Position numbers and translations under genes: made by a program. This document shows, piece by piece, positions 1 to 44,505 of a stretch of DNA of 64,000 bases (positions are counted from its first letter, which is position 1; each line of letters starts with the position of its first letter). The notes below the pieces were generated by a model. That model made no database searches. It saw only the letters and a list, made by a program, of their open reading frames with translations, and was not told the DNA's origin. Source of the stretch: Umbilicaria muhlenbergii (lineage: Eukaryota; Ascomycota; Lecanoromycetes; Umbilicariales; Umbilicariaceae); the NCBI GenBank assembly GCA_000611775.1, contig KK106985.1, positions 2,032,291-2,096,290 on the forward strand, read 5' to 3'.

Positions 1-1249
1 CAGGATCAACGATAACTCTCTCTCCGTTCTTCTCAACACGAAGCGTCATCTTAGTGCCTCGGTATTGCTCAGCGATAAGAGGGCTGACGTTCGACTTGAT
101 GCCACCTGTGCCGATACCAATGATGATCATTGCGGCAATCAGGCCACCTAGAGCGGCGCCATGTTCGATAGACGTAGGCAGAGAAGTGACAAAAAGAATC
201 AAGATGCCAAACATGTAGACGATGGCGAAGTAAAGTATGGTGTTATACCTCCCCAGATACTATGAGCTGTTAACCACATGTAACGAATAGTAATGTGAAC
301 CTATAAACCAACCTGGTCAGCTACGATGGCACCCCCAATGGGCGTCACCTGTGTATCTTAATCAGTAGTGTTCTGGCTGGATAGCAGCAGTGGCAGTGTC
401 TACATACATAGCACCAGAACTGTAGTAAGCTTTGTCAGTGGTGCGTTCAACATACTGAGAGGGGCGCCACGTACCTGGAAGAAATCGGACAATCCGGTCG
501 CACCTGTTTGACCAAGGCCTGTTTGCCAATTAGTACCAGGCTGATAGGAAAGCGAGCCATTAAGACAAGTGGCCATTTTGAAGCAGAGATATCTGGGAGA
601 TCCTCAGCTGCGAAATAAGAACGAACAGCACATCATCGTTCAGTATTTGAGGGATCCTCAGCCAAAACAACATGAACAGTACATGGTCATTCAGTAAGGC
701 AAGAGTGCAGTGGTAGAGCTCAATGACTGGAGCTTTGCATCTGCGCATGTGATCCTCTTCGAAATTCTTACCGCAAATATAAAATCAAGGGGGGCCCGTT
801 CATCGGAAGACTGCCACTTGTTCTAATGGGTCGCCTATATGTTCTTCAAGGAAACTTGTTGCCCTACCTATTGCGCCGGGGAGGCCGTTTGGGTCATTGT
901 ATGAGTTCTGGATGTAATTCTGGAAAGGACCCGACAGCCCATAGAAGGCGAATCGTTCGCACAACTCAATCACTGCGACAAGGAAAGCCGACCAGGGCAG
1001 CTTGTCTGATACGTGGCGGAGCGTGTGTTTCTCCTCCTCCGTCGGTTCGTCAGCCTCGAGTGACGAGACACTGCTTGCATGGCCATGCATTTTCTCCTCC
1101 ATTGCGACAGGCATAGTTCGAATCACGCCAATCTCGGTGCCTCCCGCCATGTCTTGCATACTCGATTTACGAGGCTGGACTTCGGTGGCATGAACGCTGA
1201 CGGCAACGTTAGCAAGGTGCGACATGTAGCTGATGTGAGATTCTCGCAT
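1..1249 (-). CDS. ptr2: PTR2-family proton/oligopeptide transporter (3' part missing)
   Basis: Proton-coupled di/tripeptide importer of the plasma membrane (POT/PTR2 family). Exons on the minus strand: 868-1249, 475-518, 408-419, 313-348, and 259 down past the left edge. All phases close and the joined protein reads through the family landmarks: KLPWSAFLVAVIELCERFAFYG (first helix with the ERFxxYG proton-coupling motif), then GLPGAIGLGQTGATGLSDFF, FWCYVTPIGGAIVADQ, and GIGTGGIKSNVSPLIAEQY. The last helices are outside the window. The start at 1249 is the first ATG of the open frame; ATGs at codons 9 and 31 are alternatives. Two oddities: intron 1 (519-867) is 349 nt because it carries an inverted-repeat element, and one exon is only 12 nt (Phe-Trp-Cys-Tyr). 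Family assignment is firm; substrate range is not visible. Confidence 0.93.
562..832. mobile_element. MITE-like inverted-repeat element E1 (type C), inside PTR2 intron 1
   Basis: Left end reads AAGACAAGTGGCCATTTTG near 562; the right end, read on the minus strand from about 830, gives CATTAGAACAAGTGGCAGTC, the same terminal sequence inverted. It has no coding capacity. The inner part on the minus strand shares CAGATGC...GTCATTGAGCTCTA...CACTCTTGCC with elements at 10681 and 43821, which defines type C. It lies wholly within the first intron of the peptide transporter. Ends are approximate by about 10 nt. Confidence 0.75.
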
Positions 1250-3336
1250 TGGAAATGCCTACCCCGCAAGATCGCCCACACGTTCCGACATCTCGATGCT
1301 GACGCGCGCAGGCAGTAATCGGTACTCTTGATTCTTTGGAAAGAACCGCGACCTGAATGTGGCCATAGCATGTGGGAAGTGGTCAAGTAAATAGCTCTGA
1401 GGCCTTCCGAGCTGGCCCAGTGGCCCACACCGCTGTAACCTAAATTGCCTGCATGCTTGTCCATGCTTATCTCCACAACGGCCGTGACAAGTGAGCACAA
1501 GCCTCGTGCAGGAAGCACCGCAGATAGAGTGGTGTAAGGACATTGGACCCAGAATTGCATGCCAAGCCAGGAGCCCCGTTGGCTACCTTAAGGTACCTTA
1601 TCCACCCACGCCACCATGCATGGAGGCGAAAATAGAGCTCGTCCAATCACGAGCATCCTTCTTCGGTTCTTCTTCGGCGCTGTTCTTTGCTCCTTCCGCC
1701 TCGGCAGCTCAGCTGCGAATCAGCACCTTTCCATATTTCCATTACCTACCTCCCGCTTTGATCTACATCCCCTTCTACTCGTACTATCGAGTTGGAGCAT
1801 GTCCATTAGCAGCCCCACCAGATATATAATTTTACGTATAAGGACCTCGGATCGCACTGCCATAGGTGTCGACTATCGTCCTCTTTCCAGTGAGGATCAA
1901 CAAATATCAAGAGGGTCCCCCAGACCCTCAGTCGTCTTAACGAAGCTGTGAGTGCTGGTTTACCGACAAAGGCGTCGTGCCATTCTCAGTGAACTGGAGC
2001 GTGAGGGAGCCTTGGAGGGAGCCTCAGGAGCCTCGCAAATTCTCGAAGCACACAAGGGACCTATCAACAAGAGTTATGGAGACGTTACTCTACACGGCCA
2101 CGGCTCCGAGTACTCGAAGAAGGCCAACTCCGAATCGAATATCTTTGCAATGTTAGACGCTTGGCTAATAAGCATCGGTGATGTTTCCCAAGAGGGCAAC
2201 TCTTAATTGTTCGCCAGGTGAACCAATCAAGGATGAGAACGATAGGCTGGGGGGATGCTTATTTTGCCTCCTACTACCTCGCGCAGGATGAATACTACCT
2301 TGTTTACCGTAAGGATTGCGGAGAAAATACAACATGGGTTGTTCAGTCCATGGTTGCATGCGTCAGGTGTATGGACAAAACAAGTGGCGGCCTCCAGCTG
2401 GGGCCCTCTTGATGGTACAACAGTGAAAGCGAGAGATCTGAGCCCTTGAAGTCGTTTTTGCAGAGTTCCACGACTTTTGCCATCTCTGCATTAACCGGTA
2501 CTCAATCTGTCTTGCTTATTGAGTGGTCGAGGGGACCCCCGACTGAGGACTATTTTATGCACACGCTTGGCGTACGGCCTAGTTATAAATCCTGATGTCT
2601 GTCACGCAAGTGGCAATTCTCAGCGGGGCAAAATGTCTTGTCGTTGTTGATTTGCCGAGGGCCTCCTGGTCTCCACACTGAGGACGTGCAATACATCTAT
2701 GCGAAACCGTCAAGTCAAGTGCCGAAGCAAGCCTATATGATATTCTTGATCACAGGTCTGTACCTCCTTCCCTTACTTATCCGTGTCTAATCATAGATAC
2801 TGCCTCGCCTTCCCTGCAGCACAAAACGTTTTGGAGACACCAAGCTCCAATCAACCAGGCACGGAGGCCTCCTCAGCCCTCCAGGTTCGACAGTAACCTA
2901 GACAAAGTTGGACTTCTTAGGCGAATAAAATATGCGCAACAAGTGATGATTCGTTGCCCAGAAAAGCGACTTAGAGGCTTGCGCCCGGATGGCGTTGTGC
3001 CTGAGGCGATCTCAAAGATCTACCTCCTCTTCGGGTATTGGATAGGGCAAAGTCGAGGTTTGAGCGCATGCCGAGAAACCTGAAGATCCCATATGGCGTA
3101 CCGAACGGCTACACGTGTAGGCTGCAGAAGCTTAGCACTCCGAGACATCAAGTTGCCGGAAGCCCACCCCCGGCATTGTTCCAATAGAACAAATCATTAC
3201 CTACGCCCTGCCTCGGCGTTCACTATGTTTCTCACGTCTATATTAGAGTGCTTAACCCCATTACCTCAAGATGTCAACCGACCGTCTACGTCATTGGAGC
3301 GCCTCAGGCATTTCAAACTGCTTCCTCCTGTGAATC
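1250..3336. other. Intergenic region between PTR2 (divergent) and lysophospholipase
   Basis: About 2.1 kb serving as upstream region of both flanking genes. Open frames here (for example plus 1491-1829, 1616-1951, 1952-2206) show no domain, no conserved motif and no codon pattern like the neighbours, so I do not call genes. It contains a clear inverted-repeat element at 2364-2571 and a possible decayed one near 2605-2700 (CAAGTGGCAATTCTCAGC). Confidence 0.6.
2364..2571. mobile_element. MITE-like element E2 (type A)
   Basis: Left end GTATGGACAAAACAAGTGGC followed by CCTCCAGCTGGGGCCCTC; right end GAGGGGACCCCCGACTGAGG then ACTATTTTATGCACACG, the inverse of the left end with the GCCACTT block of the right terminus deleted. 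The interior shares TTTTGCCATCTCTGCATT with element E9 at 37052. No coding capacity. Confidence 0.72.
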
Positions 3337-4953: not shown

Positions 4954-5967
4954 GGGATGGATGGGCTGTGTGCGGTGTAAGGCATGGTGTTCGTATACAT
5001 GGGTTTTGGTACGGAGGACAATAATGCGAGGTGCACCGTCGGATTAAGTGTCAGTAAGGTATGGAGGATGTAGATCTAGGGGAACCTCCGCATATAATCA
5101 ACGGTAAGGCACGGCGGAGTGGATTTAGTTTGTGCTGTATTATTTACGCACTCGATGTCTTTTAAAATAATCTAATTGTTCTCGGGTTGTCGAGGAGTTC
5201 CCTAGCATGCATTGCCACTCATTCTAACCTCGCGCTTGGAGATACCCTAAATACTCAACAACAGTTCTCAAGCCCTAGCACATTGTCCAGTCGAGTCAGA
5301 GTGGCAGCTAGTCCAGCCGGGGATATCGTAAGACTATCGAAAACAAGTCATGAATCGAGGGAAACAGCCAGCAGGCGTATGGAAAAAATAAGTGCTAATC
5401 TCCAGCTGAGGCCCCTCTCAACATTACAAAAGGTGAAAGCGTTGTATCTAAATTCCCCGAAGTGAGTTGAACGGGACTCGAAATCTGTTAAGTGTTTGAG
5501 GGGATCCCTTGCTGGGGACTGCCACTTACTTTGTACACATGCCCTGACATTTGATTTTCGCAGAGGCCCGCGGTGAGGCGATTCTCCCTTCTACCCATGA
5601 CATGTGTCTGATCCTCTTACAGTCTCGATACGACTCGAACCCGGTGCTGCTGTCACGCTTCAATAAGCCCGTCGTATCTCAAGTTCAAAATTCATGATCG
5701 TCACAGCATGATTGCGCTGGCTACATGCATCATTGAAACCTCAAAATTACAGAGAAATGCTAAGTAGCCTACACATCGCTTGCCCAGACCCTAACTTTTT
5801 GTACCTGCTCCACGCACGCTTAGGTGTACATACCCCGAGTGTCCTAATAGCCTTTTCGATGCAAACAAAGAATCCATGGGAGCCAACACAACACCTCACT
5901 GCCCTTGCTTGAAAGTAGGTGTACACAAATAGAATAAATGCATGATGTGAAGCCTCTCTGGTCGGAC
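4954..5967. other. Intergenic region between convergent plb and HAM1-like genes
   Basis: About 1 kb between two 3' ends. It holds one inverted-repeat element (5372-5546). The remaining open frames are short and show no recognisable protein. Confidence 0.6.
5372..5546. mobile_element. MITE-like element E3 (type A)
   Basis: Left end CAGGCGTATGGAAAAAATAA followed by GTGCTAATCTCCAGCTGAGGC; right end GAGGGGATCCCTTGCTGGGG followed by ACTGCCACTTACTTTGTACA, inverse of the left. 175 bp, non-coding, in the 3' flank shared by two convergent genes. Confidence 0.75.
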
Positions 5968-8242: not shown

Positions 8243-8669
8243 CTTGGAGCTCTCGACGGTAGATACTCTTGGTGTTTGGAATGGTTGAAACGATCAAGAC
8301 TGCTGGACTGCGGGTACTCTGTCAATGCTGGGGTTCGGGTGAAAACCCTTCAAGTCATCTCTCAAAGCGATACACGTGAAAACTACCCCGCGAGCTTTGG
8401 TGAATCAGAGACTTGCCTCTGGATGGCCCACGCAAGGCAGAGCTTCCAAGTTTCTGCCTGCTGTGCCTGGATCTGGTTACGTGACTTACGTCAATGTTAT
8501 GCAAGCCGCCAAGGTACGGTAAGCGATACCATACGAGCACGAGCACCGCGTGCGGAAACCCCCGAAACACCTCACCTTGGGAAAAACAAAGTCGATAAAT
8601 GCGGGGTTCGCTTTTCTGTAGCAGTCTGGCACGTGTCAGGAGTACTCTAGCACGTCTCGAGCACGTCTG

Positions 8670-8841
8670 GGTAGGGTCAAAACCAATGGCAGCTGCAACA
8701 GGGGCACTATCATTACCCCTACTCGTAGCTGTGTGTCACGATCAGCAACACTTCCAGACATTGCAATCCTGTTGTTGATCTGTTGCCGGCGGCCGCCTGT
8801 ATCCCTTCACTTGGAACTGCCATTTATTTGACCCAACGCCT
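8670..8841. mobile_element. MITE-like element E4 (type B)
   Basis: Left end GTAGGGTCAAAACCAATGGC then AGCTGCAACAGGGG; right end TTCACTTGGAACTGCCATTT followed by ATTTGACCCAACGCC, the inverted partner. Type B ends (GCAACAGGGG left, CTTGGAGCTGC right) are shared with E10 at 37225. Non-coding, in a divergent promoter. Confidence 0.75.
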
Positions 8842-9581
8842 GTACATGTAGTCCTATTCCGTACTGCTCGTAGCGGTCATGGAGTAGAAATAGCGGGCCG
8901 AGAATCACAAACCTCCGTTGTGGATATTGGCAATCCGGAACCTTTCACTAAGGATTCTTTACTTGTACTCCGTAGTGATCCTGTACCTCCCACCGGAGTA
9001 TTCCTCTTTTCTTAGTTTACCATGACCAAAGGATCAAGGGTCCAATAATGAGAATTGCAGTTCATTGAAGCCAGCACCTTACCTTAGTAGTGCAGACTGG
9101 AAAGTCAAGTAGGTACGGTAGGCGCCTTAGCTTCACTGCGGCAGCGGGGATCAATCTGGGGTATTGCTAGCAAGCTCACTCCCTGCTCTACTGTCGCGTG
9201 CCCGGCGCAGAATCAATTCTGCGACGGCGAGAGGTAATCTTCAAGGTCTTGAGGGTGCAGAATTCGAGGTCTGTCAACTCTACCTCAGTGTCTGTCCGAC
9301 AGGCGCGGGATCCGGTAACATGTCGTCGACTCTACATGGAGTGGTGAGGAGGGGCGCCGTGAAGATGGGCGCTGCTACTCATACTCGTGCGGTCCGGAGA
9401 ACGGAGTCCGAGGAGTTCCCCGTAATGTTCCGATAAGGATTATCTTGGGCACATAAACACCAATCCTGGCCCATGTTGAATCTGTTGAGGGTGCGCGTCG
9501 AAAAAGCCACAATCCCTCTTCTATCTCATGCTAGGTGAGAGGGTGACTACGGAACGCTTCGTGAGTCTCGAGGATCATCAG

Positions 9582-9588: not shown

Positions 9589-9620
9589 GCGGGCGTGTGT
9601 AAGCTGGAGCATCCGTACAA

Positions 9621-12472
9621 ATGTTACACACATCCGCACTCCGTCCTTCAATTAATCGTATCCCGTCTCACTTCACGTATTCCGTGGTGTCTTTGCAAGG
9701 CACTCTCTCAAGTTTGTTTTCTACTACTAGAGTTGCACAACCACAATCAATCATGACTTCAGCACCTCCATCATCTGGTACTCGGGGGAACCCCCATTTA
9801 ACACGGGACTACGACACCTCACACTCGACCGGCATCCGTAAGTACCTGCGGACTTACGGGCTCACTCCACCCAATGTCGAGAGTTACGAGACGCAGGCGT
9901 CAAGATGTCTCAAGCAATTGGCGGAGAAGACGGCTTCCATTGACAAATATCTGTACCTCAGTAACCTCCGGAGTACAAATGTTCATCTTTTCTACCGGCT
10001 AGTTGTAGACCATGTGAAGGACCTCACGCCCCTAATATATACACCGGTGGTTGGGGAGGCTTGTCTCAGATGGTCAGAGATTTATCAACAGCCGGAGGGA
10101 CTCTACATCTCTTACTCTGACCGCGGCCATATAGCGTCAGTCTTGCAAAATTGGCCTCAAAACAACGTTGAGATTACTGTCGTCACTGATGGCTCACGCA
10201 TCTTGGGGTACGTCGTACGCTCAATGTTCAACCGGCACAGAGACTGATTTCAGCCAGACTGGGTGATCTTGGAATCAATGGAATGGGTATACCAGTGGGT
10301 ACGTATTGAGCCATCGTTCTGTCGTACTCTTGCGAAGCAACTTGACGATCCCTAGGAAAATTGTCATTATACGTGGGGTGCGCCGGGATCAGACCAGAAG
10401 CGACATTGCCACTGTGCCTCGACTTGGGCACCGGTAACAAAGCCTATCGAGAGGATCCCCTCTACATGGGAAGTCGAAGGGAGAAAGTCAGCGCACAGGA
10501 GGAGAGCGAGTTTCTCGACGAACTGATGGTAGCTTTGGTCGAAAAATGGCCGGGGTAAGCTCTTGCGCAGTGACAATCCATGCTCTTACGCCCCTTTTAC
10601 TTCGTCACATGCATGGCCCGAGGAGCCCCAGCTCTTGATACACTCAATCGTCTCCCTGAACCTACTCAATCCTGGGAAGCCAGGTGCAGGGTCAAAACAA
10701 CATGCGGGTTTTAGCAAGGGGAGCCCGTCAGTCACTCATTCTACGACGGAGAGAGGTGTCCAGGGTACCACGTGCGGAGTTTATAGAGCTCAGTCGCGCC
10801 TGGACGCTGCCCACTGGATGCTCATCGATATCTGTTCTTATTAATGAGTTGCCAATAAGCCACTAGGCGAACCATCAACTAATTGGCAGTCAAGCAGTCT
10901 TCTGACTGACCAGGAGACCTCCATGGATGTTCTGTTAGCGATGACAATGTTCGAAGATCAGATGCACAGGTGCTGAAACTTGAAGTCATTAAGCTCTAGT
11001 ACTACACTCTTGCCTTTACTGAACGACGATGTTTTGTTGCACTGTTTATTGTTGTTTCGCTGCTGAGGACTCGCCGGATTTCTTTGTTCTAAAACTGCCA
11101 TTTGTTTTGATAGTTCGCCTGGCTGACATTCCTCATAGTATCGTGATACAATTCGAGGATTTTAAGAATCCATTCCCGGCTCTTGAAAGGTACGGTGGGA
11201 AGTATACCTGCTTCAACGACGATATTCAAGGCACTGGCGCCGTCGTATTGGCGGGTATCATCAACGCCGTAAAGCGGAGCGGGGTGCCTATCAAAGATCA
11301 GCGCGCTGTATTCATGGGAGCTGGCAGCGCTGGCGTAGGGGTAGCAAAGCAGATTGTGCAATACTTTATGGAAGGAGGTTTAACAGAAGATGAAGCACGA
11401 CGCTGTTTCTGGCTTGTCGATACGAAGGGACTAGTGGCAAATGATCGGGGGGACAAGCTGGCAGATCATAAAGTATACTTCTCCCGCGACGACAATGCTG
11501 GAAAGCAATACAAGACTCTTGCCGAAGTCGTGGAGTACGTGAAGCCGACAATACTGATGGGACTATCGACCATGGGAGGAATCTTCGACAAGAGCATCCT
11601 CACAAAGATGGGCCAGTGGAACACACATCCGATTATCTTCCCCTTATCAAATCCTTCCGCCAACTCCGAATGCACCTTCGAGGAAGCAATGGAATACACC
11701 GATGGCAGGGCTTTGTTTGCAAGCGGTAGTCCTTTCCCACCGCTTGAGCGTGGTGGCGTGATTCACACCCCCGGTCAAGGTGAGCTCTCCTCCCAGGTGT
11801 GTGCAAAGAACGAGTGGCAGTCCTCAGCTGAGGGTCCTCTCGACCACTCAACGGTCGGGTTTTGCGGATCGGTCAGCCATGGATTCCCACAACATTCAAC
11901 ACAATCTTTCAGATATAGCGCTCCTACTATTTTCACAGAGGGCCCCCAGCTGAAGACTGCCACTTATTTTGTCCATGCACCTCCTCCTTATTCTCCACTT
12001 TCTTTTTGAGCCATGGGATTTCTGCGTCTTCGAATATTCCTCCAGTTGTGAAAGATTACTAATCAGTTATCTGGTGTCCACAGGGAACAATGTCTTCATA
12101 TTCCCCGGGGTAGGCTTTGGATCCATTGTCTCTAAAGCAACCACTATTACTCAGTCGATGATATACGCCTCGGCGACCGCATTGAGTACTGCTTTGATTC
12201 CTTCCGAGGTCGAACAAGGCTGGCTTTACCCCGATATCGGAAGAATAAGGGATGTCAGCGTGACCGTCGCCATGGGTGTGATCAGAGCGGCACAGGAGGC
12301 AGGTGTGGATAGGGAAGTACATATTAGGGGCATGGCTGACAAGGAACTGGAGAAATGGGTCAGGTCGAAGATGTACGACCCGCATGCGGAGACACAAAAG
12401 GTGCAAGACGAGGTGAATGAGTTATTTGGAAATGGTGGCGAAAAGAGTAGCATCGCTGATTCGCGTTTGTGA
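9621..12472 (+). CDS. mae1: Malic enzyme (oxidative decarboxylation of malate), probably mitochondrial
   Basis: Five exons: 9621-10207, 10258-10298, 10356-10554, 11139-11779, 12084-12472; phases close to give 618 aa. Converts malate to pyruvate and CO2 with NAD(P)+ reduction. Family landmarks: YTPVVGEACLRWSEIYQQP, VTDGSRILGLGDLGINGMGI, GIRPEATLPLCLDLGTGN, FEDFKNPFPALERY followed by CFNDDIQGTGAVVLAG, and the dinucleotide loop VFMGAGSAGVGVAKQIV. The first 44 residues are rich in Ser/Arg and lack acids, as in a mitochondrial presequence (inferred). NAD versus NADP preference cannot be decided by eye. Introns 1 and 2 are 50 and 57 nt; introns 3 (584 nt) and 4 (304 nt) are long because each carries an inverted-repeat element. 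Confidence 0.95.
10681..11121. mobile_element. MITE-like element E5 (type C) in malic enzyme intron 3
   Basis: Left end CAGGTGCAGGGTCAAAACAA, right end TAAAACTGCCATTTGTTTTG followed by ATAGTTCGCCTGG, an imperfect inversion of the left end. The interior near 10963-11030 (CAGGTGCTGAAACTTGAAGT, then ATTAAGCTCTAGTACT) matches elements E1 and E13. At about 440 bp it is the longest copy and may be a composite. It lies inside intron 3. Confidence 0.65.
11794..11983. mobile_element. MITE-like element E6 (type A) in malic enzyme intron 4
   Basis: Left end CAGGTGTGTGCAAAGAACGA then GTGGCAGTCCTCAGCTGAGG; right end GAGGGCCCCCAGCTGAAGAC then TGCCACTTATTTTGTCCATG. The two ends pair as terminal inverted repeats over roughly 40 nt. 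The left end begins 14 nt after the intron donor. One of the best-preserved type A copies. Confidence 0.8.
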
Positions 12473-13322: not shown

Positions 13323-16300
13323 ATGTGGAATCTCATCACTGGGAAGTCCAGCGAAAAGTCCGAAGCCTCCTCCCCTGAGAGTCGCCGGCGCAAAGACTAC
13401 GAACAGCGATCAGCACAAAAACCTTCGGAGTCAATCGTATCTTCAAAATCAGCCCGAAAGCCATCACGGGGTGACGACCGTGATGGCGATCGTGGGTTCA
13501 ATCCCACCTCTACGAGTTACTCCTCGACCTCGCGAAGTTCATACCCAGGAACAGCCTCAGCGTCGATAGCTTCGAGTTACGCAACCGCGTCTAACGGGCA
13601 AACCGAAGATGCAGTATTACCTCCTGGCTTAGTGCGAAACGCGAGTCTAGCAGACCATATACCCAAGTTACGATCTTCCCGCGACGACCGAGACCAAGAT
13701 AGAGCCCGAGAACGCAAGAGTGAGCGGAGGCGCTCCTCAAGCAGAGACCGAAAACGTGATAGAGACAGTAAAAGGAGGGAGAGGAAGGGCCAGCGCGATA
13801 AGGTGGACAGGGGCGACGGCAGAGATCGGGGATTGACCAGGTCCGGAAGTGGCTATGCGGAAGAATTGAGTACATCGAGAGCTGGGGAGATTTCTGCACA
13901 AGCTAGTGGCAGTTTCAATGCGCAGGTGGGAAGTTCTGGCTTTACACAATTTCCGGGTCAATATGATGCGGGCATACCTGGTTTCACAAGCGGCCCTCCA
14001 CCCCTCCACCAAAGCATGTCTGCCCATGTTCAGGACCAGTTTCCAGGGCAGTTCCCATTGGAATCTGCGGCACCATATCGACCACCATTGGCTGCTAGCG
14101 AGGGTGGTCCTGGACTAGCTGCAGAGTATTATGGAGATGCTGGTGAGTCGGTGGCCGAGCAACCTGGTGTGCGTCCATACCCACTAGGGCCCATCATTGG
14201 AGCAGAACCGCACCTTCAGCCTGCTTCACAGGTAGCAGCACCCCCACCTGAGCCTAGTTCAGCAGGTGGTGTTGGCGCAGCAGCATCATTCTACAGCGGC
14301 GTAGATTTCCCGTCAACCATACCGAGCCAGCCCTCCATGACTAGTGAACTACCCAGACCAGGGAAACAAAGCAAGCCTACTTCCTCCGGCAGCCTCTCGG
14401 GAGCGGCCGCGCTTGCTGGAACCGCTATGCTTGGATACAATTCTGGCACAGCAGGAGAAGCTTATTACGCTCAAGGGTCTGGAAGTAATGGCTCAGCCTA
14501 CTATCAACAGGGCTCTGGTCGACCACCCTCTTCGGCTGAAGGGATGGCAGCATATTCATCTACTCCAGCGCCTATCAACAACGGCTATCATGCGTCTTCA
14601 GCTCCAGTGTTACCTACTCTCGGTGCTGCTGCGGCAGGAGCGGCGGCAGGCTATATGATGGGTAGCTACTCATCTGTGCAACAACAGCCATCTGTAATTA
14701 GCGGCCATAGTGAATATTCGTCTTCAGCAACCCAGCGTCCGCCACAGTTTGGGGATTCAGCCATCGGTATTTCAACTAACTCTCGACCTCCAAGGCCAGC
14801 CAAAATTTCTTCGCAGTCTTCTACCCTCTCATTCCATGCAGCAGGTCAATCCAATCCGATGGCACAAAAACACCGCCACCGGACGGGCCCTTTGGGAACT
14901 TTTGTCGAGTTCTGGACAGATCCTGATGGCGTTGCTCAGTACGAAGAGTACACGGAATATATCGGGGTTTGCAAAAACTGCTTTGCACCAGGTTCATCGC
15001 CTCGAGATGCTCCACGCAAGCACCATTACCGTCGACGTCGCTCAGACGAACGTTATGGCAGCAGCAGCCGAGTAGACAAAGAAAGTCGTTGGGGCTCTTC
15101 TGATGGCGAAAATCGCAGAAGGAGCAGAAAGTCGTGGCTTGCTGGAGGTATCGCCGGCTATGGTCTTGCAGAAGTTGGAAAAACTCTGTTCAACCAAAAT
15201 CGTGGTGCTGATGACACCTACAACGTCCGTTTCAGTCGTGGAAACGCCTCAAGTACATCAGTTCGTAGACGGAGTGGTAGCCACTCTCCTAGCCATGGAA
15301 ATCGGGCATCCTATGGCGTGACTGGAGGGTCATCGGCTAGCATATCACGACGGAGAAGTAGATCACGAGAGCGTATCGAGACTGGTATTACTAGTGATGG
15401 CAGAATCTATAAGAAAGACCCACACGGATCGTTTCTCGGCGGTCCGGCCATGAAAACATACACTCCTCGACGTCGTTCACGCTCAAGGTCCAGGTCCGGG
15501 GACCGCCATACCGGACTTGCTACAGCCGCGCTTGGTGTAGCTGTTGGCTCATCTGTGGTTTCATCAAAATCTCGGCGTCGAAGTCGCTCACCGGAGAAAG
15601 CTTTTATACGGTCTAAACATAGGAGCAGAGAGCGCAGTCCAAGCCGTGAGAAGGTCAGCGTAATGGGAGGTTATTTTTCATCCCCGTCAGAAAAGCGTCA
15701 GAGATCCCACAGAAAGAAAAAGAAGGGATTCTTCAGCTTTGGTAATTCGTCCTCTTCTTCCGCAGACACCGATTTGGCATTCCGTGCTGGATTGCAAGTT
15801 TCTCGGAATAGGAGACAACGATCGCCGCGGTCAAAGAATGGCCGAAGCGCTGATGCTGCATTTCTTGGCTTGAGTGCCGCAGCCGCTGCGATCGCTCTCA
15901 GAGAGTCTCAGAAGGGAAGCAAGGCTTCTCGAAAAGCTGATCTAGTGGCAGTCAAGGAGACTAAAGGTAAGAAGAGCGTGTCTTCGGAACGTCACCATAG
16001 AGGCAGGCGAACATCAGCTTCGCCTACTACGGAAGAAGACGGTTGGGAGTCTGCCTCAGAAGAAGACGACTCGTCGAGTGTCAACTCTGCTCTTGCTTAC
16101 GGTGGTCCTGCACGAAGGAGTCAAGAGTCTCTCACGTCAGATTCTTCCGGCACAGCGAAGTGGGGTTGGCGTTGGGGCAGTAAGAAACGGTCGAAGCGTA
16201 CCGTAATAGCAGATCCAACTCCAAGCAGCTTCCATGTAAATGCCGGCACTGCAGCTGCTGCCTTAGCGGGAGCTACAGCAGGCGTTGCTGTGACTTCTAA

Positions 16301-25300: not shown

Positions 25301-28300
25301 ATTGACGTCATCGCCTCCGACGCCAGCTGATGGCCCTGATCAGTTGGTATTAGATCAAGCTCCAGCCGACACGGCTCTTGAGAAAGAGGACGTCTTGGAT
25401 CAACTGGCGGTCACTCAACCAATGCCTGTACCTGGAGATACCAAGCACGAACCGTCGTCTACACTGGCTCAAGCAACACGGGACATTCATCCTGTTCATG
25501 ATTCTTCGTCTTCTGCAGATGTTACCGGCGGCCTTGATCAAAGTTCGATACAAGAAGTTGCTGAGGACCGCTTCGCGGTCGTTTCCAAAAAGAAAGGCAA
25601 GAAAGGGAAGAAGGGCGATCAAAGCCTATCAATCACACCTGACCTGGGATCTACACCAACGGACTCGGATTTCCCAGTCGTAGCCACAGAACCAGGTTCA
25701 GTTTCAGTCAATAGAGCTGTTGACACTAGAACTCCCCTAGAATCAGGTGAGGGTGACTGGGATGTGCCCTTGAAGGGGAAGAAGGGCAAAAAGGGGAAGA
25801 AGGAGAAATCCGCCGTCCGAGAACCGGGATACTCGTCTCAAGAAGCGGTAACTTCAAAAGATTCTTCTGGCCCTCGAACACTTCCCGTCATGGAAACTCA
25901 GGGTGCAGATGTCGCTAAAGATCTCACAAATCCGCCTGAGCTCGGTGAGAGCTTTAGTCTCCCGGACCCTGAAGAGAAATGGGAGCCATCACAGAAGAAA
26001 TCCAAGAAGGGCAAGAAGTCGAAGACTCAGGGGCAACAGTCACTTCCTGGAGATTTTGCAGCAGCAGAGGGCGAAACGGAAGAGCCACCGGCGATATCTG
26101 AAAGTTCTTTAGCCACAACGAATACTGGCAAAGTGGTGCGTGATATGTTGGTTGATACAGGCAGTACACCATATCCTCAAGTCTTGCCTCAGAAGACCGA
26201 CGCAGTCAATCCACTTCTGAGTGACCCCAAACCAGAACAAACGATTCTTGAGAACCCTTCACATTTTGACAATCATCTAACCAGGGACTCGACCAGCAAA
26301 GAAAGGCCCATAGAGCGGGAAGAGACTGGAGTTTCTTCGCCAATAGCGTCTGTCCCAGAAAATCAGCTAGCGTCCGAAGGAACGCTTGCTCATATCAATA
26401 CAGCAAAAGAGGTACAGGCGGTGCTAGCGGACCGGGGTAGTCCCCGACCCTCCGTTGAACTATCTCGTGAAGACTTTCCTCCTCCAAACACACAAGCACT
26501 CACGGAGCCATCGTATGAAGATAATGACACCTGGGGTATTCCAGTCAAGAAGAAAGGTAAAAAAGGGAAGAAGGGTAGGCCATTGCAAGGTCCTGAATCC
26601 ACAACAGATGAGAACTCAATACCTCCTACTCCAACAGTCGGGCCACAGTCTGCTCCATCGAACGAGGATGCCATGGTTGAGCCAGCAGAAAGTTTCCTTC
26701 TCAAAAAAGGCAAGAAGGAAAAGAAGGTTAAGAAGGCTTTGAAGAAAGCTTCGAGTGGCTTCCAGGATGAGGGGGAGGCAGAGGTTGGTGTGATGCCAGA
26801 AGTTTACGAAGGTCCGCCCAAGGAAAACACAGAAGACCAGTCCTATTTCGATCGGGCAATTCGACCGACTGAGATTCAGGAACTACCGTTATCGCCGCAA
26901 AGACAGAGTGAACTGGAAATTGCTCCCAGCGTTCCACTGCCAATGGATGAGGTGGGCGACAAGCCCATGGACGTCGTGGCAGTGCAAAGGCTAGAAGAGT
27001 CGGAAGAAGCATGGTCGCGAGCAGTCGACATTACCGATCCAGAAATGGCTCCCTCAAATCCATCAAGCGGTCAACAGCTTCCGCAGTCTTCTCCCGATGC
27101 ACAACCAATCGCCGATCGAGGCAGGGAACTCTCTATGCTTGGGACACCCGACCCGACGGCTGTCGAAGCAGCGCCAATGATCGAATATATCAAGGATCCT
27201 GCAGTAGAAGATGACTTCACAGCCTTCCCCACCAAGATGGGCAAGAAGGCCAAACGGCAGCAGAGGAAGCAGCTTAAACAAGAACGAGCGAATACTGATG
27301 AGGGTAAATCTTTGCCTACTTCAACACAGCCTAAAGTTCCAGTAAACCAAGAGAGTCTCGGGTCAAGCTTTCCAGTGGATAAAACAGCTTCTGGGGGTCG
27401 GTTCTCACCAGAGTTGGGAGCTGCTTCTCGGGAGGCGCTCAGAGAGCTCGAGCTGGAAGATGGAGTGCCCTACTTCGGTCTTACGTCGGCAGAGACTGGC
27501 AAGGACGACGGAAAACAAGGCGAGCACCACCGAACCGCGCTTGCCAGTGAAGGAGACCAGGGTGCGGTACACGACGACCATCCAATAAACGAAGAGGTGA
27601 AACACAGCTTCTCAACGACACCGCATGAAAGTACTTTGGCAACAATCGTTGAGCAACCTGATTATGTAGATCCGGTCCCCCTTGGTCATGAACCTGATTC
27701 TCAGTGTGTAGACCAGGACCTTCTCAATCAGGAGAACTCTTCTCAACTCTTTGAGTCTACTAGCAAGGAAGTCGGAAGGAACATTGGCGCAACGGAAATC
27801 GAGACCGGCTCCTCTTCTGTCGAACAGAGTGGATTATTCAAACCCCATATCGACGATGCTCCTATGCGGGAAAAAACCCCGCTGTTAGCCACCACCGACT
27901 TTTCCATTCCTCACCCTTCAAGCAGCTCCCTCCCTATCGGAGACCCAGTCAGCGGCTCAGCTCCCAAATCAGTAGCCGAAGAGAACGTACCCTTAACTTC
28001 AAATGAAGACTTCTCTGCTTTCGCAACGTCTAAAAAGAGCAAGAAGGGCAAGAAGAGTAAAAAGAAGCAAGAGCCTGTTACTTGGGAGGACGAAGCTGCT
28101 CCACCGGCAGTGGTTGATTCTGGAGAGCCCACTATCAAGAATCTCGAGGCTCCACCATCCCCACCAACCTACGGGACACCCGAATCTGGCACCTCCCGCA
28201 ATGGCACAGGATATCTTCCAGCAGAGCAGCGGGAAAACAGGCCAAGCACTGAAGCCACCTCATCAACCCCTACGAATAATACTGCGCCAGAAGATCAAGC

Positions 28301-31300
28301 CAATGTGGACGAAGCAGATGATGACTTGGGATACTCGACGAAGGCAAAGAAGAAAGGCAAGAAGATGAAGCAGCGAGCAGATCTTGCTCAAAGTACAGAA
28401 GACCAGCCACAACTTGAAAAGTCTGGAGAGCGGGATGCATTAACAAGTCAAGACAATCAGTCCTGGCGCGAGCAGCGGGAGTCGGATAAACTCGATATAC
28501 CCCGAGAGCCTCAGGAGCCTCAGCACAGCGACATGCATTCATTAGTGCAACACGCCGACCCGGTCTTGATGGCAAAGGACGGCGAACACACCTCAGTACC
28601 CGTCATCGAGCCTTACCAGCAAACCCATTCGACGAGTCCGGATGGACTTCCCAGCGGTGTTCCGCAGAAATCGATACCCAGGGCTGATATCGACGAAGTG
28701 ACTATAGATCGACAAATCGAGCATGAGCATGCGGCCGTGAATTCCGATCATCCTCGGGAAGTAACAGCAACCAATGAAGAACAGCAGGACGACCTTTGGG
28801 ATTTTCCAACAACGAAGAAGTTCAAAAAATCCAAAAAGCAAAGCTTAAGGCCAGATATGGATACCCAACCCCAACCCCAAAGTGTGCAGCCCGAGCCGAG
28901 TGTGGATCAGCTTCACCAGTACACAAGTACAATATCCAATGACCTACCACTATCAACAGGAAAACCCAAAGAGCCTATGTCAGTCAGCCCGCCTCAGGTC
29001 ACTGGACACCGTGGAGACGGGCAACTTGCAGGTGCTGCTGCACTAGCTACAGTCAATGCAGGCGTGGCGGAAGCCTTGTGGCATAACAATTCTGAGGGAA
29101 AGGGTGACAAGTCGGAAACCCAGAGAGAGGACAGGCAATGGAAAGCTCATGAAGACGAAAGCGTGGAGTTTCGTAGCTTACACGACAAGGCGTTCCAACC
29201 CAGCGAAGGCTCTTTGCAACTTGACAATGCAACGCAGCACACGGTACCTGTACCACTCCAGCTATACCATGACAGTCCGCCATCTTTACCTCAGTTTTCA
29301 GTAGAGGATGAACATAGGCAGAATATCGCGCGTCAACCAGTCCCAAGCTTTCACTACGAAGACGACGCTAAAAGGGATAGCGCGGTACAGATCTCAGACT
29401 CGCCAGTCATCTCTGAAAGAATACCGACCTACGACGTCGTGCGTGATAGTGGATACCAGGGTACAGAGTCAAGCCCACTTATAGGAACAGATCCAGAACT
29501 CATAGATACAATTGGGGCCGAGCGCCACCCAAAAATCGTTGAGCGGCCATCAACTCAGGCAAGAGACGAACAGACTGAAACTCCAGAACATCTTCGCAGC
29601 TACAAAGACACTGCAGTTTACGACGCCGAAAACCCCCTTAAAATCTCTATCGAGGTCGATCCAGCGTATGAGGTAGCTATTTCGAGGCGTCAATCACGGC
29701 GAAGTCGTGGTAGAGTCGGGTCCAATTCTCATGACGGCAGTCTTGAAAAGAACGTCGCTCCACGGATCGATTCACGCCCAGTAAGTGCTGTAAAATCTCT
29801 TGTGCAGTATTTCGATGTGCCATCGAAGCCTGCGCCGGTGGACTTTACTACCAAGGACAGATCTTCCGTCCTCTTGCAATCCTCGCCATCGACTAGGGAA
29901 GAGCGTATGGGTCAGCCAAATGAGCACAAAAATGTGCATGTTTCCCGCGGCTACATAGGTCACGTTGACGTGTCGCCTGCACACAACGACAGCGGAGAAA
30001 TTCTGTCAGAACCTGAAATGTCCCCACCCATGCAGACCCACGATGGAGCGTCCATCTTGGCCGCACGCGCCTCAAGTCTGGCAGCTTTGAGTGGTTTCAC
30101 AGATGCGCATCACGAATCGCCCAAGTCTTTGTTCGGCGGTCCAGTCGGCATCAATAGTGATCATCCGTCGACAATCTCGCCGCCTAGAACCCCTTTCAGC
30201 CTCGAGAGTTTGGGCCGGCGACAATTGAACACGATCACAGAGCATAGTCCGGAAGAGTCTCCTCATCCCAAGAACGCCCGCGCCATATTAGATATCGGAT
30301 CACCAGAACGAGGTACGAAGTCAGCTCGGCGGTCAGCAACGCCCGGGGAGATATCTCAGCAAAGAGTACGCTCCCCGACAGTCATGGGTGCCAAAGACAA
30401 GAGCCTCATATCTACTGATGATGTGCTCGCACGACTCTCGTGGCCACCAGTGGACAAGGACAAACACTCTGTCGACCTTGAGCGAAGCAGAAGTCGAAAC
30501 GCCGATCGACGACCGTCAAGTCGACACAGCAACGTCTCAGCGCTGGTAAGCGACGCGATGAGACAGCGCGAAATCGAGCACCGCTCAGTGAGCGGCGCAA
30601 GCATTCGTTCTGGTGAGAGTATCAATGCCATCATCAGGACACCCGAGCAATTTCGATCCGCAAGCGGGCTCAGCAACAGATCGGGCACTCCGCCCTTGCG
30701 ACGAGTTGATACTCGCAGCGTCAGTGGGGACCTCAGGGCGGCAAGCAAGCGCGGTGAAGCCAAGGATCTCGCTAAGCCGGCCGAAGGTGAAGCCGAGCCA
30801 GAAGCTGCACCTGCACTTTCACTTGCAATTCCATCCTCTTCATCGTATGATCCTGTCAAAGACAAAGGCAAGAGTCGTGCCAAAGATATGGCCGACGTCT
30901 ACGTAAGTTATCCAAATTAGTTCTATCGTGTCTCTGATAATTCTGAAGGCTAAGTTGATCGATTAACAGGAAGGATGGGGTGATGTCCCCAATAATGGAT
31001 CCCCACTTTCTCCCACGCGACCGCCAAGCATGCGCCGGCGCCAGAGCATGCAGATTATGGATCTGGAGTCAAGAGTTGACCAACTCGTATCAGAGAACAG
31101 ATTATTGCAAGACGCAAAGTCAAGAGCGGAGCGGGGTCTTGAAGATGCTCACCATGATCATGGGCAGAAATCAAGCGCTTTTGTGGGAGCGATCGAAACA
31201 CGTGACACGTATCTGCGCCAGAAAGATACCGAGCTCAACGAATTGAGACAAATGCTGCAAAGCTTACAGCATGAGGTCACACGACTTACAGAAGTCAACC

Positions 31301-32550: not shown

Positions 32551-33644
32551 GGCGTCACCCTCGTAACCTGTTTCTCCATTCTATAACGATGGGCGGCTTT
32601 TCGGGCGGTGTTGCATGGCGATCTTTTTAGCGCCATCTGAGGGAGCCATTTTGAGAGGTTTGAGTTGGGTTCTCCGTGCATGTAGAGACATGCCTTTGTA
32701 TAATGACGATTTACGACATTTACATATTCTTCTTATATAAATTCCTCTCAGTGCATATGTCCATGGTGATGGTCTCTCTCTCGCGCTCTCTCTGATTACA
32801 GATTCGAACCAACATGCGGTCCATCAGGCGTATGCATAAAGTAAGTGGCAGTCTACTGCTGGGAACCCTCTTGATGATAAGTAACGGGAAGGTAATGTAT
32901 AGATCCTTAGGCCGGATGTTGTAGAGATCCATGCTTCTACCATTCTACATCGAACATTCTTCAAGATCTGAGGTTGATTCTCTGTTAGGTAGGGGATCCC
33001 CTTGTTGCAATTGTCATTTCTTTTGAGCCTGCGCCTAACATGCCTGCCATCCCTCTGGCTCGGCACTTGCCCTTCTTTCACAACGACAAACGTATCTATT
33101 TAAATACACAACGATCGGCCTCGTCATGTATTTAGGTATGAAGAACACCGGCACTTGCGCCCGTGAAGCATCACCAACCACGAGCACGACACATCTCTAA
33201 CCCACCTCTGGCAACGATCAACCCGCGGTGCTCCCTCTATGGCGCCGGCAAGTGAAATGACAAGCATTCTGCATGCACAAGCATCAGCCAAAAGGAACGG
33301 AACGACGCGAGGTTCCGCCTCAGAAGATCGGTTGCGTGACGTCGATGGCCGCACGCTTCAGCCAATCGATGATAGCTTACTCGTACAGGTACCGAGGGAG
33401 CTTGCTTCCACAGATCGAGGCGGATAAGTACACCAAATGAGAAATTGCTTATTCTGTACTCGTATCACCTTCCCGGCCATGTCTTTCTTCCCGTACTCCC
33501 CAGACAAGTACGGGGTCATCTTGTATCACGAGCAGTATAGGGGACAATACCACTTTCTTTCTCCCTGACACAGCAACGTTCAATCACGAGTACTGACAAC
33601 TCCACCTCCATTTACAAGTCCTTACCTGGGCCCCAACTCCCACA
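32551..33644. other. Spacer between leashin and GPI-type protein gene
   Basis: About 1.1 kb. Contains a short TCTCTCTC/GCGCTCTCTC microsatellite near 32774 and element E7 at 32825-33036. No protein gene seen. Confidence 0.55.
32825..33036. mobile_element. MITE-like element E7 (type A variant)
   Basis: Left end CAGGCGTATGCATAAAGTAA then GTGGCAGTCTACTGCTGGGA; right end GGGGATCCCCTTGTTGCAAT then TGTCATTTCTTTTGAGCCTG CGCCTAA. Terminal inverted repeats are recognisable over 45 nt with scattered transitions. Non-coding, downstream of leashin. Confidence 0.75.
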
Positions 33645-34070: not shown

Positions 34071-34706
34071 AGGGCTGGCGGCGCGGGTGGAGGATCTGGG
34101 TAGGATCGCTTGGGGGATGATGGGATGCGCTGGGATAGGATGGACGGAATGGATGTAATTAGAGGAGGTATTGAGGATGGGGGTCGCTGCGTTGAGACTA
34201 CCTCTAAGGCTTGCTTCCTACAGGTTGGGATCGGAGTTGTACGTTGTACTTTTGTTGCTTTTGGGGCGAATCGGCTCTTGATGGCTTTACGATTGCTCGG
34301 ATTCGTTAGCTGGGGGTCCCCTCAACCACTTAGCATTCAAGACAGGTTTCGAGGACCGGTTAACGCGGAGATGATAGAAGCATGGATCCCCATAACCATC
34401 GCTTCAGGAATTGAAATATATCGCTTTTGCTGTTGTAATGTTGAGAGGGGCCTCAGCTGGAGATTGCAACTTGGTTTGTCCATACGCCTGCTGGCTGCTT
34501 TCCCTCTATTTATGACTTATATCCATTAATCTTATCAAACATCAAACCAGCGTGATGGACCAGGGAACCACCCCAGTGACTGTAAGCCGTATTTCACACA
34601 ACCGTTCACCGTTGTCCGCATGTCCTTGGATGAGTAAAACCCTCCTCCTCCCCTTCCCTCCCTCCTTCCCCCCTCCCGTCCACCCCTTCCCTCCCCCTCT
34701 CCACTT
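34071..34706. other. Convergent 3' spacer with element and pyrimidine tract
   Basis: 636 nt between two 3' ends. Holds element E8 (34300-34490) and, from 34634 to 34706, an almost pure C/T tract on the plus strand directly after the stop of the Cys-rich gene. Confidence 0.55.
34300..34490. mobile_element. MITE-like element E8 (type A, left end decayed)
   Basis: Right end is intact in outline: GAGAGGGGCCTCAGCTGGAG then ATTGCAACTTGGTTTGTCCA and TACGCCTG. On the left only the inner part, TTAGCTGGGGGTCCCCTC, is recognisable. The 25 nt beyond the right end (ATGACTTATATCC) match those beyond E14 at 44463. Confidence 0.6.
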
Positions 34707-35088: not shown

Positions 35089-35376
35089 TGTTGCGGGTGG
35101 TTGGGTTGATTGTATGGGTGCTAGGGGGTTGGAGGTTGTGGTGGAAGCTGCGATAGAAGCTGTGGTGGGCGGACCGGAGAGGTAGTAAAAGGCAGAGGGA
35201 TTCGAAAGCTTATCGATAGGGCTGGAGGGGCGAGGGGCTCCTCAGGCCGTGATTTGGACTGTGGGCAATGGGGAGAACCAATTACAAGGATGATGTTTAT
35301 TGTAGTGTGTTCTATCGAATACCAATACTAATCTCTGTGAAATGAAATGAAATGAAATTGAATGAAACGGTGCCTA
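35089..35376. other. Spacer with (TGAAA)n microsatellite
   Basis: 288 nt between two minus-strand genes: promoter of the Cys-rich gene and 3' flank of the next. A pentanucleotide repeat (GAAAT)n of about five units, slightly interrupted, occupies 35338-35368, just downstream of the next gene's stop. Confidence 0.6.
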
Positions 35377-36465: not shown

Positions 36466-37051
36466 GTTGGGAAACCTGACAGACTTTGGAGGTGGGACTG
36501 GAAAATGTCAACGAATATTGAAAGAAGTACTCACACGAAGTGATCGAGAACTTGATGATGTGCCTTGGATGAGTAAAACGTAGTATCAGACCCACGCCAG
36601 ACGGTAGAGAACGACAAGAGAGAGCCGGTCTCTCCTGATAATGAAATGAAGAGAGTCGAACACGCAAAACACAACGTGAACAAACAACAGTGGGGAGATA
36701 TCCTTGGGGCGTTGCTGTGTATGTGTACGCCGTCCCATCAAAGAAACGACGCTGAGGCTTGTTGCCATGTGAACCACGTGGTGAACGGCAGCTCATGGCC
36801 ATGGTTCTCATCTGAAAGCTCTTTGTTCGACAGTGATTTGACAGCTATGCTCTTCATTCTCAACAACCGAGTATCCTCATGCGGCGATGTTGCCATTGAT
36901 CGTCTTTATTCACACAGTAGAGCAGGGTACAAAGCATTCTTTGTTCATGTCCACAGGAACCAATAATGAGAAGCCAGGAGATAAGCTAACTGCCGCCAGT
37001 TGAGAAGCACAGAAAGGAAGTTCGTATTCCGCCTTTGTCAGTCTTGCCCGC

Positions 37052-37226
37052 CAGACGTATAATCAAAATAAGTGGCCGTCTCCAGCTGGGGCCTTTCTTG
37101 GTATTACGACAGAGACAGCAACTTATGTAAATGCTCGAAGATTTCTACCATCTCTGCATTGTTCAGTCGTTGTGTATTCGAGGGGATCCCCAGCTGATGA
37201 CTACCGATTATTTTGTCTGCACGCCA
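37052..37226. mobile_element. MITE-like element E9 (type A)
   Basis: Left end CAGACGTATAATCAAAATAA then GTGGCCGTCTCCAGCTGGGG; right end GAGGGGATCCCCAGCTGATG then ACTACCGATTATTTTGTCTG CACGCC. Interior contains TTTCTACCATCTCTGCATT, shared with E2. Abuts E10. Confidence 0.8.
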
Positions 37227-37455
37227 GGCGTAGGGTCAAAATAAATGGCAGCTGCAACAGGGGGTCCCCCTACATGACGAGGCACCAACTTCAAGGCTTC
37301 GAGGATAGGTATGAATGTCATACATGTTTGCAAGCGGTTGAGCTCTGTAATCCTCACTAATTAGATTTCGTAAAATCACACTTTTTTGTTGATTTGATAC
37401 TAGGGACCGCCTGGATGCCTTTACTTGGAGCTGCGACTTATTTTGACCCGAGCCT
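37225..37455. mobile_element. MITE-like element E10 (type B)
   Basis: Left end AGGCGTAGGGTCAAAATAAA then TGGCAGCTGCAACAGGGGG; right end CTTTACTTGGAGCTGCGACT then TATTTTGACCCGAGCCTG. The best-preserved type B copy; interior includes GCGGTTGAGCTCTGTAAT. Begins exactly where E9 ends. Confidence 0.8.
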
Positions 37456-38098
37456 GACGCCTGCCGCCTTGTATTTCTGATTCTTGCCACGTGATGCCAC
37501 CAAAAGGAGCCCTGCCACATAACATACTGGCTTATCGTTCTCCGCCCATATAAGCTCGTCAATAGAAGCCAGCCGATTATGCATAGACGGAATGAAGTCT
37601 CACATTACCATGAAAGGTATCCGTAGAAGAACAATTTGGAAGCAATGTCCTATCTCCGCGCAACTCTCCAGGGGTCTCAACCTTCTCCGCCTCCAAATAC
37701 ACTAGCATTTGGTGGCGGTGGCGGATAAAGGAAACAACTCGATTGTCAACTCAGACGTCCCTACCAAGAAGCAACAATATACCCCCAGATAAGTACTTCC
37801 TTATCTCATTCCGCCTCACCCAACATCATCATCCCCAGGGATGATCCAGAGTCTATGATTCATTGTACCTTAGTCAGGAACCACCAAGGGACCGAGCGTG
37901 TTTCTGATATTGAGCAGGGTTTGGTGTGGTCGTGTTTGCTTCGCCCGTGCGGATAGAGGATGCTTATCCCTATTCGGTCACCGAAGACTTGGGATATCCG
38001 GCGGATATACAGAGGCAACAATTCTGTGATGTGGTATCGTTCGCGGTATCATCTACAAAAACATTGGAAAACTAAATATCAAGAACGTCCCTTACCAT

Positions 38099-38322
38099 CA
38101 GACGTAAGGCTGAAACAAAAAACAGTTGCAACAGGGGGCATTTCTACCCAACAAAGCACCGATTTCGACCTTAAAGGATATGAATTCAGTACATTTTACA
38201 AGCCATTGAGCTCCCGGTTCCGCAGTAATAATAAGAGTCAAAGAAATTGCACTCCGTTGTGGATTTGTTGATATGGCTCGCCTAGTACTAAGAACTGCCA
38301 CCTATCTCGACTATATGTCTGC
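38099..38322. mobile_element. MITE-like element E11 (type B, decayed)
   Basis: Left end CAGACGTAAGGCTGAAACAA then AAAACAGTTGCAACAGGGGG; right end TACTAAGAACTGCCACCTAT then CTCGACTATATGTCTG. Interior AGCCATTGAGCTCCCGGTT parallels E10. More diverged than E10 from the shared ends. Confidence 0.68.
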
Positions 38323-41202: not shown

Positions 41203-41262
41203 CCTGGTGTCGCAATCGTCCTCAAGGCCCTCTGCTGTTGTATACTATTGTTGTCGGTTTCC

Positions 41263-43388: not shown

Positions 43389-43580
43389 CAAGCATATGAA
43401 CAAAACAAGTCGCAGTCATCAGCTGGGGGTCCCATCACCCATACAAGCTTGATATTGAGGAATCCTTGAGATGTGGGGGTAGAAGCCGTTGATCTACAAC
43501 TTCCACCCCAAGAATTTAGATCTATCGCTATCGTTATTGTCTCGTCGGGAAGGATCCCCTGCAGCCCTGAACTACAGGGT
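43389..43580. mobile_element. MITE-like element E12 (type A, right end decayed)
   Basis: Left end AGCATATGAACAAAACAAGT then CGCAGTCATCAGCTGGGGGT; right side only partly kept as GGGAAGGATCCCCTGCAGCC. Right boundary uncertain. Confidence 0.55.
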
Positions 43581-43820
43581 CTCTCCCATGTAGCAAAAGG
43601 ATAGAACTACCCAAAAAATCAAAAAAACATACAACAGCAGGGATTCGCTGGTGGTCACCCACCCAACTACTGATCTGCCGATCTCAAGCTTATGTATGGC
43701 AGAGCGGACGGGATGCCCAGTTTTCTTGAGTCTATGGTCGTATGTGGCAATACATCTCCTCGTAATAATATATTTACTAATGATTGCAATGTTGCGCCGG
43801 CAGTCAAGATCTCCTGCAAA

Positions 43821-43975
43821 CCCATCAAAACAAGTGGCAGACTTTTGATGAAAGAAGCGCCCCTTAGTATTCTATCCGTCGATGAAGAAAATCCCAAAAA
43901 GTGTTAATCGCACAGATGCTGAAAATCAAAGTCATTGAACTCTAGCACTCCACTCTCCCCATCCATGACCGAACA
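43821..43975. mobile_element. MITE-like element E13 (type C, right end not found)
   Basis: Left end CCCATCAAAACAAGTGGCAG; interior at 43913-43975 (CAGATGCTGAAAATCAAAGT then CATTGAACTCTAGCACT) matches E1 and E5. A right terminus may lie near 44090 but is not convincing. Confidence 0.5.
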
Positions 43976-44232
43976 ACAATACATAATCCACCACCGTCCA
44001 TCATCACTTCCACCGAGGAACCCCTGGATTTTCTCAGCCCTCAAACCACCACTTATTCCAACCCTGCGCCCGACCTCCGCTCTGAATTTGTCCTGACCGA
44101 GCGAGCACAAATAAAAGTACCGTAATTTCTGCTGGAGTTGTCTCTACGCCCGTTGCTACAGCGCACACACACAGTTCGTAAATCTTTCGAAGAAGAAGTT
44201 TAGAGCATGATCGATCTTAGAAGCTTGCGAAG

Positions 44233-44463
44233 TAGAAGGTTTGAAATAAGTGGCAATTCCAAGTAGAAAGATCCAAGGCAGCCCCCAGTGATATCAATTA
44301 GAATAGATTACAAGATCTAGAAAGCTCGTTACTGCAGATTATAGAGCTCAACAACTTTTCAGAGGTGTGCAGAATTCATATCCGTCAGGCCTGACTGAGG
44401 TCGGTGCTTTGTCGTGTTGAGGGTGCCCCCTCTCGGACTGCAATTTATTTTGACCCTACGCCT
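44233..44463. mobile_element. MITE-like element E14 (A/B mixed ends)
   Basis: Left end GGTTTGAAATAAGTGGCAAT then TCCAAGTAGAAAGATCC, which resembles the right terminus of type B; right end GAGGGTGCCCCCTCTCGGAC then TGCAATTTATTTTGACCCTA CGCCTG. Interior CAGATTATAGAGCTCAACAA. The sequence following (CCTATTCATGACTTATATCC) recurs after E8. Confidence 0.68.
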
Positions 44464-44505
44464 GTCCCCCTATTCATGACTTATATCCGATACCCTTACA
44501 TGTGA

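Follow-up and report, generated by a model that had tools for sequence, protein, structure and literature searches.

Short repeats with CAGG ends, dispersed through the 64,000-nucleotide stretch of DNA analyzed here (the window; C5:2032291 to 2096290 of a 34,788,950-base genome in seven contigs), are very probably old nonautonomous MITEs, one type of which (type A) came to lie within a second element, termed X, with the nested pair then spreading as a unit. The features observed are those of MITEs, that is, short noncoding elements with inverted ends, a 4-bp duplication, and many dispersed copies. The original prediction, made from the letters of the window, had called the family MITE-like, a reading supported here by at least 258 ends in the genome, the duplication, and the nesting of a type B in a type A element. 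This duplication and nesting, as well as the outer Tc1/mariner-like arms beside three copies in the window, had been missed in that prediction.

Self-comparison of the window, in which G+C content is 50 to 55%, revealed related dispersed repeats from 552 to 44488. An end profile was iterated on the window and then rebuilt from 120 ends (window and fetched loci), whose consensus starts CAGGCGTATGGACAAAATAAGTGGCAGTC; the inverted ends, CAGGCG...CGCCTG, span ∼30 to 50 nt. At ≥8 bits, 24 ends were detected in the window compared with 0.02 on average in 50 random windows matched for dinucleotide composition, a count that is not independent, as window ends contributed to the profile; independent evidence comes from the genome. 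By reading, the ends resolved into ∼15 noncoding elements (552 to 44464), including truncated and highly degenerate ones, in agreement with the at least fourteen copies with imperfect inverted ends described previously, and one weak fragment was found besides (2607 to 2628). Likewise, the profile scan returned no end of ≥8 bits after 44464, as expected from the claim that none lies between 44.5 and 64 kb, and the claimed lack of a transposase in the window was matched by Pfam, which detected no transposase domain among its 15 ORFs of ≥250 aa (all scanned, the largest as two halves). The end motif originally spelled out, GGCGTAGGGTCAAAATAAG, closely resembles the type B end and has three window matches at ≤3 mismatches (0 expected) and no exact match in the genome. 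Interior types A and B were borne out by consensuses of 216 and 228 bp, respectively, and the third proposed type (C) is present at 552 to 837, 10894 to 11121, and ∼43910 to 44070 according to BLAST, consensuses having been built for A, B, and D.

Several elements occur in introns. The first element of the window (type C; 552 to 837, minus strand; BLAST match to 10894 to 11118, TIR match at 824 to 800) lies in an intron of a minus-strand PTR2-family transporter gene, the PTR2 domain being encoded by the exon downstream of it. Malic_M positions 1 to 188 are matched by the frame from 11029 of a malic enzyme gene, and positions 183 to 257 by the frame after the intron (Pfam). The predicted GT...AG signals are outside a plus-strand type A element (11794 to 11983; TIR profile) with CTCC duplicated on both sides, and the preceding intron holds two further plus-strand elements, namely, a degenerate type B-like element with an uncertain right end (10681 to 10864; weak TIR match, 8.7 bits) and a type C element with a weak left end (10865 to 11121; TIR match at 11121 to 11091, BLAST matches to 552 to 814 and 43910 to 43956). 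Splice sites were read from the sequence by eye and are thus predicted; since they are outside the elements in the three introns read, an interpretation of the window elements as introners was rejected. The statement that no element lies in an exon therefore stands for three element stretches, which sit in introns of genes with followable frames, and for such genes only.

The other standalone elements are, on the plus strand, a type A element (2364 to 2569; L035) with TIR matches and a GCGT duplication (2360 to 2363 and 2570 to 2573), a type B element with a degenerate left tip (8661 to 8842; self-BLAST and TIR profile), an element with an A-like left end and a B-like right end (32825 to 33037; self-BLAST, end pairing, and TIR profile), a degenerate type B element (38101 to 38321; self-comparison repeat family, TIR match at 38321 to 38288 with 8.0 bits), a type A element with its far end missing (43389 to 43562, end approximate; TIR match), in which homology to paired copies stops ∼174 bases in, and a degenerate type C element with ends placed by eye (43814 to 44072; BLAST and TIR profile). 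A 5S rRNA gene is located on the minus strand (43626 to 43745) between the truncated type A and the type C element. In addition, a plus-strand open frame of 5,865 aa (13323 to 30920) with 99-, 84-, and 162-bp tandem repeats occurs between two element groups and has no Pfam match.

One pair of plus-strand elements records its own history. A type B element (37225 to 37456) sits in the end of a type A element (37052 to 37463) and splits it. The two ACGC copies flanking the former (37221 to 37224 and 37457 to 37460) belong to the ACGCCTG end of the type A element, whose last bases, CTG, occupy 37461 to 37463; after this final CTG, CCGC (37464 to 37467) repeats the CCGC preceding the type A start (37048 to 37051), so that both duplications are intact. 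The order of insertions is plain: type A came first, and type B was inserted into its end.

Genome-wide, AGGCGTNNGNNCRAAAYAARTGGCAGT had at least 258 matches, of which ten fall in the window, and the stricter CAGGYGTAKGGWCAAAAYAAGTGGCAG had 92 at ≤3 mismatches, with six matches in the window and all seven contigs represented; the reversed-pattern control gave 0 matches in both cases. A genome-wide copy number search had been proposed in the original prediction, and at least 258 ends, rather than a few copies, favor transposition. After merging of stricter-pattern ends <500 bp apart, 88 elements remained, with a maximum of 7 per 64 kb (C5:2025273 to 2076728); six of these 7 fall in the window, which thus lies in the densest cluster seen. 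In 2,000 uniform placements, the maximum per 64 kb was 2 in 770, 3 in 1,131, 4 in 94, and 5 in 5. The suggested regional clustering is therefore real for the pattern used (7 versus at most 5), uniform placement ignoring gene density and the pattern favoring some subfamilies.

The target-site duplication, the second check that had been proposed, also favors transposition. Inward-facing ends 120 to 460 bp apart in the window and the fetched loci were paired (78 pairs); 56 pairs had ≤3 mismatches at the two hexamer tips, and the 42 of these without the tested X-arm words made up the test set of standalone elements, with expectations taken from flanks swapped between elements. A perfect 4-bp duplication was present in 15 of the 42 (0.24 expected). 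Flank identity over 4 bp was 0.65 versus 0.28 in swapped flanks, and position by position, these four bases alone rose; for 2, 3, and 5 to 10 bp, identity was at chance (0.23 to 0.29 versus 0.24 to 0.28). Perfect matches numbered 2 at 2 bp (3.29 expected), 2 at 3 bp (0.80 expected), 1 at 5 bp (0.10 expected), and 0 at 6 to 10 bp, where fewer still were expected, such that the 3-bp and 5-bp counts slightly exceed chance, whereas identity does not. The larger share (27 of 42) had no perfect 4-bp match, which fits old copies, and includes the element at 37052, scored as a failure although its duplication is intact when the nested element is allowed for. The duplications (GCTG, CCTC [twice], AGGC, GCGT, ACGC, GCAC, CGGT, ATAG, CAGC, ACAG, GCCT, CCGG, ACCC, and CTCC) share no fixed target word, and most are G+C rich; subfamily D showed a duplication in three of four further standalone copies examined by eye (GTGT, CCTG, and CCGG). 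Such varied 4-bp duplications at CAGG ends are the mark of cut-and-paste insertion.

The duplication length separates the CAGG elements from several known superfamilies. Insertion of Tc1/mariner elements duplicates TA, while PIF/Harbinger duplicates 3 bp, hAT 8 bp, and Mutator-like elements 9 bp, and piggyBac targets TTAA; Sola, Ginger, Chapaev-type EnSpm, and Academ leave about 4 bp. Assignment to Tc1/mariner was rejected with 2-bp flank identity at chance, to PIF/Harbinger with two perfect 3-bp matches among 42 and an identity of 0.23 versus 0.26, to hAT with 0 of 42 perfect at 8 bp (identity, 0.29 versus 0.26), to Mutator-like elements with 0 of 42 at both 9 and 10 bp, and to piggyBac with TTAA in none of the 15 perfect duplications.

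Consensuses of 216 bp (type A), 228 bp (type B), and 228 bp (type D, with ends CAGGCGTGCCATC or similar) were compared with their copies. Median identity to the consensus was 0.72 (28 copies) and 0.81 (22 copies) in two type A sets, 0.82 in type B (17 copies), and 0.85 in type D (6 copies), indicating that the family is old. Transition/transversion ratios ranged from 1.25 to 1.51 with no clear C>T or G>A excess, and in the type A set of 22, the changes from consensus were roughly balanced (G>A, 142; A>G, 149; C>T, 143; T>C, 131). In these overall substitution counts, the family shows no plain RIP signature.

Outside the CAGG tip, some copies continue into an outer arm reading GTAAGAGTATCGGACATAAGTCATGAATAGAGGGA, which belongs to element X. 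A 32-base piece of this arm had 38 genome matches at ≤3 mismatches, whereas the control gave none. The window holds one composite with both arms and two single arms. In the former (5328 to 5621, plus strand), a type A element (5372 to 5546; TIR matches at 5372 and 5543) lies between arms with X matches at 5328 to 5362 (30.7 bits) and 5620 to 5591 (9.6 bits) and carries the shared junction AACAGCCAG. The single arms, both on the minus strand, follow a type A element without its far end (34312 to 34534, arm at ∼34491 to 34534; self-BLAST, TIR profile, and junction analysis) and a type B element (44230 to 44499, type B at 44230 to 44464 and arm at 44465 to 44499; BLAST, TIR profile, and X match at C5:2076758 to 2076789). 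Further CAGG ends occur inside some composites (L114, L119, and L121). Among 37 X-arm loci (one row per arm group, excluding repeated loci as well as arms in the window itself), 36 also hold a CAGG end, a share that is biased because all except six were fetched by CAGG-containing queries; for the six fetched for the arm itself, out of the 38 matches, the count is five. Moreover, the junction of AACAGCCAG with CAGG, at ≤1 mismatch, was present at 21 of 195 distinct ends, compared with roughly 0.1 expected (0.000175 per random position, with about four offsets allowed). One junction common to so many ends suggests that copying involved the nested pair as a whole and was probably carried out by a Tc1-like transposase whose broken gene persists elsewhere in the genome.

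Such a gene is carried by L113, a 1,576-bp X copy with 66-bp identical inverted ends, in which HTH_Tnp_Tc3_2 and DDE_3 domains in two separate ORFs represent broken pieces of a Tc1-like transposase; the fragment had no match among solved structures. A relative at C2:3705634 to 3707078 is 73 to 77% alike and does not have the short repeat that interrupts L113. X ends have TA at the second and third bases in 42 of 47 cases and G first in 44 of 47. X thus resembles Tc1/mariner elements in the two domains between its ends, its size of ∼1.6 kb, and the TA beside its ends, and differs in the near-constant G before the TA, being known here from one broken copy. The interrupting repeat itself (134 to 137 bp; L113:932 to 1068) is also found in L127 and L128 and has 16 further near-full genome copies at 94 to 99% identity, with flanks suggesting ∼5-bp duplications (ACGTC and CAACT). 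Its interpretation as an introner was dropped in view of two further copies where no long open frame was seen.

A full-size CAGG element or a transposase with the same ends was found neither in the long inward end pairs read (L061, C1:9693806 to 9699494; L062, C3:3627663 to 3635455; L063, C4:472779 to 478928; L064, C2:4520060 to 4528815) nor among subfamily D ends, which formed inward pairs of ∼227 bp only. L065 contains two complete elements 7 kb apart. Pfam detected no transposase in L062 to L065 (six of the seven ORFs listed in L062 and L063 and ten of the eleven ORFs of ≥150 aa in L064 and L065); the ORFs either had no match or matched, for example, a deaminase, a short-chain dehydrogenase, TPR repeats, SPT2, a Cys/Met enzyme, or a fungal transcription factor. 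In L061 (C1:9693500 to 9699800), a type B element seems to have been the insertion site of a Copia-like retrotransposon that includes a run of N; homology covers 123 bases from one end and 112 from the other, together approximately one type B length. Thirty-one of 33 unpaired ends were compared with paired copies, and most look truncated or degenerate by eye. Genome searches for Transposase_21 and KDZ returned no match, as did the control genomes. hAT dimer domains had 13 genome matches, and piggyBac had one open frame and six other matches, with none in control genomes for either; no CAGG end occurs within ∼1 kb on each side of the open piggyBac frame, which has a different TIR. The transposase domain of the piggyBac type (C6:1870438 to 1871646) is part of this 596-aa frame and lies between matching inverted ends starting ATTATCCCTTCGACTG.

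Considering these results together, we propose that a transposase acting in trans once recognized the shared CAGG end and cut its target with a 4-bp stagger, and that this enzyme would now be lost, decayed, or too diverged for detection. A type A copy would then have landed in a nonautonomous Tc1/mariner-like element X with ends GTAAGAGTATCGGACATAAGTC, and mobilization of the nested pair by the X transposase may have followed, so that composites at different sites would share one inner junction. Alternatively, the repeats might be regulatory or structural, such as a conserved hairpin RNA or a protein-binding palindrome, and never have transposed. Some copies do lie in introns, and the folding of one copy was equaled by 2 of 200 shuffled sequences (z = −3.07), but such folding is expected of any long inverted repeat, no element has an Rfam match (the window's only one being the 5S rRNA gene), and the 4-bp duplication, the nesting, and the low conservation (medians of 72 to 85% to consensus) render this explanation highly improbable.

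It is also very unlikely that the standalone CAGG copies arose as remnants of the composites, with the latter being the true elements. X-arm words in 14 of the 56 well-ended pairs and the junction common to 21 of 195 ends would be consistent with this order of events; however, 42 of the 56 are without the tested arm words, and 15 of those 42 carry varied 4-bp duplications directly at the CAGG ends. Nor is there much likelihood that a single system was at work, with the Tc1-like transposase of X moving the CAGG elements as well. This would account for the frequent association of the two, and X is the sole transposase tied here to such loci, but the ends differ (CAGGCG versus GTAAGAG), and the TA duplication of Tc1/mariner is at odds with the 2 of 42 perfect 2-bp matches at CAGG ends, where 3.29 are expected. 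Within the preferred reading of old MITEs and a nested pair spreading as a unit, we would advance only speculatively that the CAGG elements form an undescribed ascomycete cut-and-paste lineage with 4-bp duplications and that the composites reflect a MITE hitchhiking in another family as a way to spread, perhaps following the loss of its own transposase.

The CAGG family is another MITE family of a well-known kind, with nested composites added. In the parts of the report consulted, mimp MITEs of Fusarium oxysporum are described as 200 to 220 bp long and noncoding, with short TIRs and several subfamilies, in a genome that has no intact transposase to partner them (PMC3599309). The CAGG elements share with mimps, as described there, their size, short TIRs, lack of coding capacity, and subfamilies, and for them, too, no partner was found in the stretches read; in contrast, mimps need TA targets and resemble the ends of impala (Tc1/mariner), whereas CAGG elements duplicate 4 bp, the ends of the two being compared here unaligned. 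For Umbilicaria pustulata, a likely congener, 18 TIR-order and 4 MITE families are listed in the portion seen of the source (PMC8773270), which gives them without sequences, ends, or duplications and hence does not allow identity to be compared. Repbase, according to the section consulted, groups nonautonomous DNA transposons by duplication length and first 11 bases (PMC4455052). No description of the CAGG family was found in the open-access literature searched, which does not prove its absence. Defined ends, a duplication length, and consensuses are now available for a MITE family in a probably genetically tractable lichen fungus, together with a clear example in which a nested MITE was copied along with the element around it, and the hot spot copies in the malic enzyme and transporter introns offer loci for testing effects on splicing or expression. 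In addition, L120 and L123 have a common flanking sequence (GCCTCAGGGTTAAGCA...) upstream of the type D element, perhaps representing another repeat.
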